Of a stretch of DNA of 64,000 nt, positions 7,077 through 21,569 are shown in pieces. Every line of letters begins with the position of its first letter. Position 1 is the first letter of the stretch. The DNA lies in the NCBI RefSeq assembly GCF_000745185.1, contig NZ_JQNJ01000001.1, forward strand, positions 4,074,501-4,138,500, in the 5' to 3' direction. A model generated the notes under the pieces. It was not told the origin of the DNA. It saw nothing but the letters and a program-made list of their open reading frames with translations, and did not search any database. The DNA is from Muricauda sp. MAR_2010_75 (GTDB lineage Bacteria > Bacteroidota > Bacteroidia > Flavobacteriales > Flavobacteriaceae). The position numbers and the translations under genes are program-made.

Positions 7077-8501
7077 ATGAGTGTTACTGCTAATTCCGTA
7101 TGGAACAACTGTTTGGCTTTTATCCAGGATAACATCCAACCGCAGGCATTCAAAACGTGGTTTGAACCTATCAAGCCCATCAAGTTAACAGACAAAGCGC
7201 TCAGCATTCAGGTGCCCAGCAAGTTTTTTTACGAGTGGCTTGAAGAGCATTATGTAAAACTTTTAAAGGTGGCCTTGACCCGGGAATTGGGAAACAATGC
7301 CAAACTCATTTATATTATAAAAATGGAAAATAAGTACGGGAACAAGGAACCGTTCACAGAGCAGATTCCAAGCTCTAACCGTACCGCTGTAGGACCTCAG
7401 GAATTGGATGTACCCATTACCTCCAAAAGTCCCGAGCTAAAAAATCCCTTTGTGATTCCTGGTATTCGAAACATTAAAATTGAATCCCAGTTAAATCCCA
7501 ATTATAATTTTGACAATTTTTTGGAAGGAGACTCCAACCGATTGGCCCGTTCTGCTGGAATGGCGGTGGCCAACAAACCGGGCGGAACATCCTTTAATCC
7601 GCTGTTGGTATTTGGAGGCGTTGGTCTTGGAAAGACACACTTGGCACATGCCATTGGGGTGGAAATCAAAGATAAATATCCTGAAAAAACGGTGCTCTAT
7701 ATCTCTGCGGAGAAGTTCACCCAACAATATATAGAATCGGTAAAGAAGAATACCCGTAACGATTTCATCCATTTTTACCAATTGATAGATGTGCTCATTA
7801 TTGATGATGTGCAGTTCCTGTCCGGTAAGTCTGGAACCCAGGATGTGTTCTTCCACATTTTTAACCATCTGCACCAAAATGGCAAGCAAGTTATTTTGAC
7901 CTCGGACAAAGCTCCGGTGGATATGCAGGATATTGAACAGCGATTACTATCACGATTCAAATGGGGGCTTTCCGCCGAATTGCAAAGCCCTGATTATGAG
8001 ACCCGTGTTTCCATTTTGAAGAACAAATTGTATCGGGATGGTGTGGAAATGCCCGAAGATATTATTGACCATGTGGCCAAGAACATCAAGACCAACATTC
8101 GCGAACTGGAAGGTGCCATTATCTCATTGATTGCACAATCTTCGTTCAACAAGCGTGAGGTTACCCTGGAATTGGCACAGCAAGTAGTCGAAAAGTTTGT
8201 GAAGAACACCAAGCGTGAGGTTTCCATAGACTACATTCAAAAAGTGGTTTCTGACTATTTTGAGATGGATGTGGCAACCCTTCAATCCAAAACCCGTAAG
8301 CGACATATTGTACAGGCCAGACAGTTGGCCATGTTCTTTGCCAAAAAATTTACCAAGGCCTCATTGGCCAGTATTGGTTCACAGATTGGAAAGCGTGATC
8401 ACGCTACGGTGCTTCATGCCTGCAAAACGGTGGACAATCTTGCTGAAACCGATAAACAATTCAGAAAATATATAGAGGACCTCAACAAAAAGTTCTCTTA
8501 A
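7077..8501 (+). CDS. dnaA: Chromosomal replication initiator DnaA
   Basis: 474 residues, full length. Domain I is at the start (SVWNNCLAFIQDNIQPQAFKTW); the AAA+ domain III has Walker A VFGGVGLGKTHLAHAIG, Walker B VLIIDDVQFLSGK, the arginine-finger region QRLLSRFKWGL and KTNIRELEGA; domain IV ends with the DNA-binding signature GSQIGKRDHATVLHACKT. It binds DnaA boxes and opens oriC. dnaN is not adjacent; instead a phosphatase and a methylase follow. The 200-base upstream gap has only one near-match to a DnaA box (TTGTTCACA, 6980-6988), so an origin here is not supported. Confidence 0.99.
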   Translation: MSVTANSVWNNCLAFIQDNIQPQAFKTWFEPIKPIKLTDKALSIQVPSKFFYEWLEEHYVKLLKVALTRELGNNAKLIYIIKMENKYGNKEPFTEQIPSSNRTAVGPQELDVPITSKSPELKNPFVIPGIRNIKIESQLNPNYNFDNFLEGDSNRLARSAGMAVANKPGGTSFNPLLVFGGVGLGKTHLAHAIGVEIKDKYPEKTVLYISAEKFTQQYIESVKKNTRNDFIHFYQLIDVLIIDDVQFLSGKSGTQDVFFHIFNHLHQNGKQVILTSDKAPVDMQDIEQRLLSRFKWGLSAELQSPDYETRVSILKNKLYRDGVEMPEDIIDHVAKNIKTNIRELEGAIISLIAQSSFNKREVTLELAQQVVEKFVKNTKREVSIDYIQKVVSDYFEMDVATLQSKTRKRHIVQARQLAMFFAKKFTKASLASIGSQIGKRDHATVLHACKTVDNLAETDKQFRKYIEDLNKKFS

Positions 8502-18292: not shown

Positions 18293-18359
18293 CAATCTCA
18301 AAATCAACCTCTGACGAGATACGTGAAAGTTGGTCTTGCTAAACATTAAAAAATAAACC

Positions 18360-18710
18360 ATGGAATCCCTAATAAAATTTGTTGAAGACGAATTTGTTCC
18401 AAAAAAAGAATTTCCAAAATTTTCATCAGGAGACACTATCACTGTCTACTATGAAATCAAGGAAGGTGAAAAAACCCGTACCCAGTTCTTTAAAGGAGTT
18501 GTAATCCAAAGAAGAGGTAGCGGCGCCACTGAAACGTTCACCATTCGTAAAATGTCCGGTACCGTTGGGGTAGAAAGAATTTTCCCTATCAACATGCCCG
18601 CATTACAGCGAATCGAAGTAAACAAAAAAGGTAAAGTACGTAGATCCAGAATCTTTTACTTTAGAGGTCTTACCGGTAAAAAGGCCCGTATCAAAGAAGT
18701 TAGGGGATAA
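18360..18710 (+). CDS. rplS: 50S ribosomal protein L19
   Basis: 116 residues. FSSGDTITVYYEIKEGEKTRTQ, FKGVVIQRRGSGATETFTIRK and VGVERIFPINMPALQRIEV are the L19 core, followed by the basic KGKVRRSRIFYFRGLTGK. L19 sits at the 30S-50S interface. Own promoter and a strong terminator make it a single-gene unit. Confidence 0.98.
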   Translation: MESLIKFVEDEFVPKKEFPKFSSGDTITVYYEIKEGEKTRTQFFKGVVIQRRGSGATETFTIRKMSGTVGVERIFPINMPALQRIEVNKKGKVRRSRIFYFRGLTGKKARIKEVRG

Positions 18711-18731
18711 TTCCATTCCCAGAAACAGAAC

Positions 18732-18762
18732 AAAAAAGCATCTCGATCGAGGTGCTTTTTTT
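18732..18762 (+). terminator. Rho-independent terminator after rplS
   Basis: AAAAAGCATCTCGATCGAGGTGCTTTTT folds on itself as a long hairpin with one G-U pair and ends in a run of T. Confidence 0.9.
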
Positions 18763-18861
18763 ATGAACAATTGTTAATAACATCGGTTCATACATTGTTG
18801 ATTTTTAATCGGTTATAAAATTTGTTTTTCTCATTCTTTGAAGTACTTTAGTAGAAGAAAT

Positions 18862-18900
18862 ATGAAAATGATGCAAGTCAAGTCCATGTTTCGGTTTTAA
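18862..18900 (+). other. Possible 12-codon leader ORF upstream of the structured RNA
   Basis: ATG AAA ATG ATG opens a 12-residue peptide (MKMMQVKSMFRF) ended by TAA. It is preceded by a TACTTTAG sequence one base off the promoter consensus. Too short for any coding statistics; noted only for its position directly before the hairpins. Confidence 0.15.
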
Positions 18901-18914
18901 AGTTGACGTTCTTT

Positions 18915-19247
18915 AAAAACTGAAAATTTCCCTTTTAATTGGTAACACTACTGATCACAAAAGGAATTTCAAATTGAGGAGACGCTTAGGCGGGCCTCAA
19001 GGAGAATTCGTAAATTTTATGTGCGAATGGGAGAGCAATTTCCCGTTTTGATAAGATTTAGGAAATTATCAGGACACTTTGCGAGATAGAGTTTGGTTGT
19101 ATAATTGAATGAATCGAGTAGAGTAAACGTCTAAAGGGCAACAGATGCAATCTTCGGATTGCGGTTTTGTAGCAACACAAAACAAGTCTTTTAGTCCTTT
19201 ATAGAAAGCCATATCAATGTTCGCACATGGATATGGCTTTTGTTTTT
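18915..19247 (+). ncRNA. Candidate structured non-coding RNA between rplS and icd
   Basis: No gene fits the 584 bases after the rplS terminator, but consecutive hairpins do. CCTTTT 18931-18936 pairs with AAAAGG 18959-18964. TTGAGG 18974-18979 pairs with CCTCAA 18995-19000, enclosing CGC-TTAG-GCG 18983-18992. ATTCG 19006-19010 pairs with CGAAT 19024-19028. AATTTCC 19037-19043 pairs with GGAAATT 19061-19067. GCAATC-TTCG-GATTGC is at 19147-19162, and GTTTTGT/ACAAAAC at 19164-19183. A terminator closes it at 19205-19247. It does not show the RNase P, tmRNA or SRP conserved cores I know. A 6S-like or lineage-specific RNA is possible. The 5' end is uncertain; no exact promoter box was found. Confidence 0.55.
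19205..19247 (+). terminator. Rho-independent terminator ending the candidate RNA
   Basis: AAAGCCATATC at 19205-19215 pairs with GATATGGCTTT at 19230-19240; the loop contains a further ATGT-TCGC-ACAT stem. A T-rich tract follows. Since no protein gene precedes it, it implies a transcript ending here. Confidence 0.85.
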
Positions 19248-19314
19248 TAGAAATTCTTCAAGTATTGCCACTTACTTTTGAAAAATTCGTTATAAGTACA
19301 CCGTCCATAAATTG

Positions 19315-19322
19315 TATATTTG
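19315..19322 (+). promoter_or_regulatory. TAnnTTTG promoter box for icd
   Basis: TATATTTG ends 24 bases before the icd ATG at 19347. Confidence 0.55.
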
Positions 19323-19346
19323 CACCGCTCAAACAAATACACATAA

Positions 19347-21569
<2,223 letters not shown>

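Follow-up and report, generated by a model that had tools for sequence, protein, structure and literature searches.

Within the window, by which we mean the whole 64,000-nucleotide stretch of DNA analysed, the ORF list places no gene-like ORF between the stop of rplS (18710) and the start (19347) of a 740-aa ORF that was named icd from the first reading of the sequence and that we take to encode isocitrate dehydrogenase. About 583 nt of this gap remain after the rplS terminator, bearing out the gene-free stretch that an earlier, sequence-only reading had described there. The features assigned to the region, in coordinates of the window, are as follows.

18360-18710, + strand: rplS (ribosomal protein L19), the upstream neighbour, for context
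18732-18762, + strand: rplS terminator hairpin and T-run, seen in the sequence and aligned among congeners, for context
18761-18780, no strand assigned: palindrome TTATGAACAATTGTTAATAA, a probable operator that occurs once in the genome
18786-18802, + strand: second part of the probable operator, two further half-sites (GTTYAYANNNTGTTGAT), present in 48 of 48 operators read
18821-18851, + strand: predicted promoter of Bacteroidetes type, with TTTG (18821-18824), a 19-nt spacer and TACTTTAG (18844-18851)
18857-19246, + strand: predicted structured non-coding RNA, about 390 nt, its inferred start accurate to about ±3 nt
18859-18890, + strand: P1, the 5′ hairpin; outer helix of eight pairs on alignment A1, seven with two-sided changes, 86.4% of cells paired
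18896-18917, + strand: P2 hairpin, UUUAAAG[UUGACGUU]CUUUAAA, 97.9% of cells paired
18904-18910, + strand: pseudoknot strand 1 (UGACGUU), 99.2% of cells paired, two-sided change at two pairs
18920-19072, + strand: P3 domain, closing helices and three arms (helices 5-13)
19077-19123, + strand: P4 hairpin (helices 14-15)
19126-19132, + strand: pseudoknot strand 2 (AACGUCU), pairing with strand 1, from covariation
19133-19200, + strand: P5 domain (helices 16-18), helix 16 being weaker with 84.6% of cells paired
19204-19247, + strand: intrinsic terminator GAAAGCCAUAUC...GAUAUGGCUUUU, eight of 11 pairs invariant in the genus
19315-19322, + strand: TATATTTG, predicted as the -7 element of icd's own promoter, conserved in the congener alignment, for context
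19347-21569, + strand: icd, the presumed 740-aa isocitrate dehydrogenase, the downstream neighbour, for context

The start of the RNA near 18857 was inferred from the position of the promoter at 18821-18851, and the predicted RNA gene is accordingly larger than the interval 18915-19247 that had been marked originally. The 3′ end of that interval holds, but its 5′ end was set about 60 nt too far downstream, so that P1 and the 5′ half of the hairpin holding the pseudoknot strand fall outside it. The order rplS-RNA-icd is kept in all 34 congeneric genomes in which BLAST found the RNA.

The pairing of TTTG with TACTTTAG was typed as a Bacteroidetes promoter on the strength of the TTTG...TANNTTTG consensus, which we assume to apply here. 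Promoter-like matches precede 85 of 93 RNA loci, compared with 320 of 1860 shuffled upstream sequences, and a stricter pattern gave 76 of 93 against 150 of 1860; the shuffles in these tests, as in those for the palindrome and boxA below, keep base composition only. The promoter and palindrome counts cover the 93 loci (82 distinct copies) caught by a motif-plus-terminator pattern among the 104 given to it, the 11 that it did not catch being L011, L058, L076-L078, L081, L089, L093, L097, L181 and L182. At the other end, the terminator that the sequence-only reading had placed at 19205-19247 is present at 19204-19247, with the eight invariant pairs holding throughout the 34 congeneric sequences; in a set of 25 sequences drawn from several genera, eight pairs are the same in all 25. 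By eye, the neighbouring rplS terminator varies between genera, and the terminator of the RNA looks as if it were conserved beyond the needs of termination. A simple terminator scan did not include the hairpin at 19204 among those that it listed. Further downstream, the icd promoter region TATATTTGCACCGCT (19315-19335) resembles the TATATTTGCACCCGCTT of the rRNA operons; the likeness extends into the first bases transcribed and seems odd for a metabolic gene.

A small protein or mRNA was considered and rejected, for none of the four ORFs of at least 20 aa on the two strands of the window's copy is intact in more than three of the 34 sequences. A promoter and terminator of its own, a covarying fold and the lack of a conserved ORF together qualify the sequence, computationally, as an independent non-coding RNA gene, and the conserved promoter and terminator with no conserved ORF lend the same kind of support to the earlier claim of a separate transcript unit.

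The folding of the rplS-icd gap exceeds chance: positions 18852-19250 fold to -120.8 kcal/mol, compared with -85.1 ± 4.8 kcal/mol for dinucleotide shuffles (z = -7.5), none of the 100 shuffles folding as well. Mean pairwise identity in the genus is 74% over the RNA, 71% upstream and 66% downstream, and the variation within the RNA is therefore sufficient for a test of structure. RNAalifold, applied to the 34 congeneric sequences aligned with MAFFT (alignment A1), gave 79 pairs, 36 of which show at least one two-sided compensatory change. We also assembled a composite structure of 122 pairs by joining the results of four sub-alignments to the P2 hairpin, the terminator and the long-range helix. 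With the pseudoknot included, 93.5% of 4093 cells are paired across the 34 sequences. Two-sided changes occur in 54 of the 122 pairs, against 27.6 ± 2.8 for shuffles that do not preserve the relatedness of the sequences and 26-35 for slid versions, a control that flatters the composite because the sequences counted were also those used to build the structure. The covariation score was 0.238, compared with 0.162 for the control, and none of 500 shuffles reached any of the five values. The search for compensatory changes in related rplS-icd gaps, proposed in the sequence-only reading as a check, thus came out in favour of the fold. The weaker helices are helix 10 (77.9% paired), helix 16 and helix 1 (84.6% and 86.4%, as listed), and the middle domain changes strongly between genera, the fold statistics given here covering the 34 congeners.

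The consensus includes a pseudoknot, the 5′ strand of which lies in the loop of P2. Its helix (helix 4, seven pairs) covaries in two different sequences, with C-G replaced by U-A in L039 and G-C by A-U in L027, and a diverged copy in G003 retains, by eye, the strands UUAACGU and ACGUUAA. The three arms of P3 consist of a CCUUUU/AAAAGG helix with a GGUAACACUACUGAUC hairpin, an arm with a UUAG loop and a long UAAAUUUUAU/AUAAGAUUUA arm; P5 has a UUCG-loop hairpin (19147-19162) and a UUUGUA/CACAAA hairpin (19166-19181). The two tetraloops noticed in the DNA as TTAG and TTCG were confirmed as UUAG at 18986-18989 (CGC-UUAG-GCG) and UUCG at 19153-19156. The consecutive hairpins reported with them are likewise real, but the consensus has nine rather than six.

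The distribution of the RNA was followed at several depths. BLAST with 18850-19250 found a match in 34 of 36 congeneric genomes, our own included, and in none of 23 genomes of other families. Of the two congeners that it missed, G003 proved by eye to carry the diverged copy, which is shorter and lies in the same gap, and in G014, a genome of 75% completeness, not even rplS gave a match; the conservation in relatives that had been named as a check was thus found in 34 of 36 congeners by BLAST, with a thirty-fifth by eye. For more distant genomes we used two covariance models, R1 of the 5′ and middle part and R2 of the 3′ domain. R1 matched in 23 of 397 family genomes at E ≤ 0.1, and icd adjoins 18 of the 23 loci, including weak ones down to E 0.07; the matches that do not adjoin it (L054 and L059-L062) were counted as chance. 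R2 matched in 63 of the 397 at E ≤ 1e-8 and in 224 at E ≤ 0.01, the latter being an upper figure because two matches of 44-45 bits in genus g147 (L101 and L103) are false. All 34 fetched R2 loci above 100 bits adjoin rplS, icd or both, and seven of the nine family loci checked below 66 bits lie at rplS. From the 5′ motif to the end of the terminator, the 82 distinct copies measure 242 to 530 nt (median 336 nt). One short, odd copy beside rplS and icd (L058, from G214), excluded from A4 as such, keeps the 5′ motif and the terminator, with the middle domain largely gone.

Beyond the family, R2 at E ≤ 0.1 gave matches in 20 genomes of other families among 395 phylum genomes, and the loci of 18 of the 20 were covered by our check, G579 and G675 lying outside it. 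Ten of the loci (L098, L105, L106, L108, L109, L112-L115 and L119) are, by eye, terminators of protein genes or unrelated sequences; the other eight (L110, L111, L116-L118 and L120-L122) all lack both the 5′ motif and the palindrome, and seven of them follow an open frame. The single outside match among 296 order genomes at E ≤ 0.001 (L292) is a terminator behind an open frame. All 19 outside-family matches checked thus looked false or unrelated on their sequences.

The neighbouring gene offered a second approach. Of 80 icd loci taken from named genomes, a plus-strand R2 match lies upstream of icd in 22; 21 of these belong, by title or by genus, to Flavobacteriaceae, and the remaining match is a weak one on a Vicingaceae contig (L211, 27 bits). 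The positive loci come from Flagellimonas, Maribacter, Arenibacter, Muriicola, Robiginitalea, Sinomicrobium, Gelidibacter, Algibacter, Flaviramulus, Leptobacterium, Winogradskyella, Lutibacter, Aequorivita, Salegentibacter and MAGs, and 18 of the 21 in Flavobacteriaceae also have the 5′ motif or the palindrome, neither being found in L170, L173 and L175. Seven icd loci that we take for Flavobacteriaceae (L184, L187, L200, L212, L215, L216 and, from Flavobacterium hydatis, L236) have no R2 match, 5′ motif or palindrome upstream of icd, and among them L212 alone has a terminator of the type; in the six other than F. hydatis the RNA could sit elsewhere in the genome. In all four g147 genomes the rplS-icd gap is about 250-300 nt long and is without the RNA, the 5′ motif, the terminator and the palindrome. 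This genus is probably Flavobacterium, since it is the commonest genus listed in the phylum and order searches and since F. hydatis gave the result just described. Because the RNA is missing from the gap in four of four g147 genomes and without trace upstream of icd in seven of the 28 icd loci that we take for Flavobacteriaceae, it appears to be dispensable in parts of Flavobacteriaceae; judged from these searches, the RNA family is widespread in Flavobacteriaceae, not universal, and its absence in one large genus offers a natural comparison.

Upstream of the promoter, the palindrome sits about 80-100 bp before the inferred start and is followed by GTTCATACATTGTTGAT at 18786-18802; the pattern TTATNAACANNTGTTNATAA has one site in the whole of its own genome. 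With at most one mismatch, the palindrome is present at 91 of the 93 RNA loci (80 of 82 distinct copies), and none of the 1860 composition-shuffled upstream sequences came below two mismatches. Searching with the pattern TTATNAACAATTGTTNATAA alone found it in 33 of 149 family genomes, at one site each (two in G135), and the reversed control gave 0. Thirty sites from these 33 genomes were fetched, of which 29 adjoin rplS or icd and 26 precede a terminator of the RNA type; the sole exact palindrome of the 30 that adjoins neither gene is at G183:C1:3512952 (L267). Positions 5 and 16 of the palindrome vary, by eye, without preserving base pairs, and it therefore resembles a DNA site read by a protein rather than an RNA hairpin. 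It is probably a dedicated operator of the RNA gene.

The half-site of the palindrome is one letter off TTATNCACA, the canonical DnaA box, and dnaA itself lies in the window at 7077-8501, about 10 kb upstream of the RNA; the DNA-binding end of this DnaA looks, we presume, ordinary. A replication origin at the locus, suggested by this likeness and by the nearby dnaA, was considered and rejected, for neither GC skew nor the direction of the rRNA operons places the origin there. The lowest skew in our own genome falls at the edge of the stretch read, the skew minimum of G426 is without a cluster of this kind, and the skew sampled in the two genomes (G000 and G426), with the rRNA direction, suggests that the locus is well away from the minimum and more towards the terminus. 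The distance between the RNA and the contig start is 10-16 kb in several single-contig genomes, which may reflect numbering from dnaA; our comparison of the vicinity of dnaA covered the window (7077-8501) and G000, G426, G430 and G212. The second operator part recurs once in the 1.26 Mb read of our own genome, at C1:1532329, and was not found besides the RNA locus in 0.6 Mb of G426 that included the skew minimum. The recurrence (G000:C1:1532329; L295:12329) is an intergenic cluster in which TGTTCATAAGGTGTTGATAA and TTATCAACA stand about 130 bp apart; it has the second operator part in common with the RNA gene and is possibly an origin or a further target of the operator's protein. Another DnaA-box-like cluster, at G000:C1:1939551 (L313/L314), has TGTTGATAA-CCC-TGTGGATAA and a third TGTTGATAA within about 120 bp, and lies about 100-200 bp before an ORF that by eye resembles a ribonucleotide reductase ATP-cone protein.

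The sequence comparisons show a conserved promoter, a palindrome, a covarying, pseudoknotted, multi-domain fold, a terminator, no conserved ORF and a fixed locus. We think it probable that a large structured RNA of about 390 nt is encoded here by a gene of its own and founds a trans-acting RNA family, which within the genomes searched is limited to Flavobacteriaceae. Transcription would be controlled by a protein bound to the palindrome DNA (about -96 to -77), and the terminator of the RNA would set the transcript free. The fold would be locked by pairing between the P2 loop and the segment before P5, a step that would have to wait for synthesis of the 3′ part. Conservation over several domains, the internal use of the P2 loop and a neighbourhood that is fixed without being functionally obligatory all suggest that it is the folded RNA that would then act in trans, most likely within a ribonucleoprotein (RNP) or as a regulator that binds protein; these roles seem likelier than that of a short base-pairing sRNA or of an icd leader. 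To our knowledge, RNA genes this large and this strongly covarying, with no relative in Rfam, are rare, and this one belongs to common marine bacteria, in which it has a fixed locus, a delimited promoter and a unique palindrome. Some earlier orphan large RNAs proved to be ribonucleoproteins or ribozymes, and a bolder and distinctly tentative version of the same reading is that the RNA represents a new class of large RNA working as an RNP or even catalytically, with its synthesis possibly tied to the cell cycle through the DnaA-box-like operator half-sites (TTATNAACA); if true, it would be the operator, some 10 kb from dnaA, that could make this tie.

The strongest rival to the independent, trans-acting folded RNA is an sRNA, also encoded in trans, that would act mainly by pairing its single-stranded loops with mRNAs, its fold serving as no more than a scaffold. 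The invariant stretches in the GGUAACACUACUGAUC hairpin and the UUGACGUU loop would suit such a role, and a transcriptome study of Flavobacterium psychrophilum reports a conserved structured sRNA, Rfp18, that is needed for protease expression (PMC9723704). However, the size of the RNA and the number of its covarying helices go beyond what pairing requires, and the internal, covarying pseudoknot already occupies seven of the eight bases of the P2 loop; we consider a pairing sRNA unlikely.

Much less can be said for a cis-acting leader or attenuator of icd, the terminator of which would be opened or closed by a signal. The RNA does lie upstream of icd in 18 of the 23 R1 loci, eight of them without rplS in the fetched stretch, but a separate, conserved icd promoter follows the terminator of the RNA, and the g147 genomes retain icd without the RNA in four of four cases. 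In G183 an ORF of 1256 aa on the opposite strand separates the RNA from icd, and ORFs of 190-234 aa intervene in L172, L178, L183 and L188, these being reading frames only and the R2 scores of the five copies modest (28-57 bits). Because ORFs intervene in five relatives, once on the opposite strand, we reject the leader as very improbable; a riboswitch or leader co-directional and contiguous with icd in all members is not what these five loci and g147 present. Derivation from the 3′-UTR of the rplS transcript is a most improbable alternative: although the RNA directly follows rplS in all 34 congeners, the rplS terminator precedes the palindrome, the RNA has a conserved promoter of its own, and it is kept in eight loci with no rplS within about 1.5 kb.

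A missed member of one of the housekeeping families (6S, RNase P, tmRNA or SRP RNA), to which a similar size and vertical inheritance might point, can be given next to no credence, because the genome has a 6S-Flavo RNA (L032, 96 bits) and an RNase P RNA (RF00010; G000:C1:2867270-2867573, 202.7 bits) elsewhere, refuting the locus as the sole copy of either, and ARAGORN found no tmRNA or tRNA gene in the window. Neither 6S model (RF00013 or RF01685) nor that of RNase P matches at the locus, and no Rfam SRP match was found at the locus, in the window or at the homologue loci, in agreement with the earlier statement that RNase P, tmRNA and SRP core sequences are not seen there. The architecture differs too, 6S RNA being a long hairpin with a central bubble like an open promoter, and the present consensus being multi-branched, with nine hairpins and a pseudoknot. 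Of the two options that the sequence-only reading had offered, a 6S-type RNA is rejected, with its copy elsewhere, and a lineage-specific RNA remains, its part as a regulator being our inference.

Over the whole window, the only Rfam match at gathering score is the L19-Flavobacteria leader (18305-18332), and a relaxed scan of 18711-19350 gave 15 matches, none of which reaches its gathering score and each of which overlaps the hairpin of one or the other terminator. No family in Rfam 15 reaches gathering score over the RNA, either in the window or at 14 diverged homologue loci, so that in the covariance search, another of the proposed checks, the word 'undescribed' stands, and the earlier interpretation as an undescribed structured RNA is supported by covariation, conservation, Rfam and ORF tests alike. 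The motif ACGUUCUUUA in the RNA resembles the Nus-factor boxA of rRNA leaders, which in five genomes reads AGTTC[AT]T...ACATATTG; a boxA matrix had its best match on ACGUUCUUUA in 12 of 24 RNAs, mononucleotide shuffles being as good in 6 of 200 cases at the lowest and mostly far more often; the likeness to boxA is kept as a lead. Elsewhere in the genome, a second 16S rRNA match (G000:C1:2766638-2767527) spans only 890 bases, with the model reportedly covered from end to end; it is either a 16S gene that has lost a large part, an error of assembly or an artefact of the search.

Among the matches listed in our literature searches, no title or start of an abstract describes this RNA; its novelty is judged from those listed titles and abstract starts and from Rfam 15, and we know of no family under which it could be filed. 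The nearest published work in the family is the transcriptome study of Flavobacterium psychrophilum that describes structured Rfp sRNAs, of which Rfp11, 13, 15 and 18 are reported to be conserved in other species; these are likewise new structured RNAs in Flavobacteriaceae (PMC9723704). Since the rplS-icd gap of g147, probably Flavobacterium, is without the RNA in four of four genomes, the rplS-icd RNA is probably none of the Rfp sRNAs. Closer at hand, the L19-Flavobacteria leader (RF03130) lies next door, a leader of 29 positions upstream of rplS that has no overlap with the RNA. The 6S-Flavo RNA (RF01685) is also an independent structured non-coding RNA of Flavobacteria, but its model has 108 positions, whereas the rplS-icd RNA is over three times longer and lies at another place in the same genome. 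The orphan large structured bacterial RNAs OLE, GOLLD, ROOL and HEARO, compared here for their general character only, are likewise long, multi-domain, pseudoknotted and covarying, with functions that do not follow from homology. In contrast to these, the rplS-icd RNA is shorter, has a fixed chromosomal locus and an associated palindrome, and gives no match at Rfam gathering score; as a broad kind, that of the orphan large structured RNA, it nevertheless has company.
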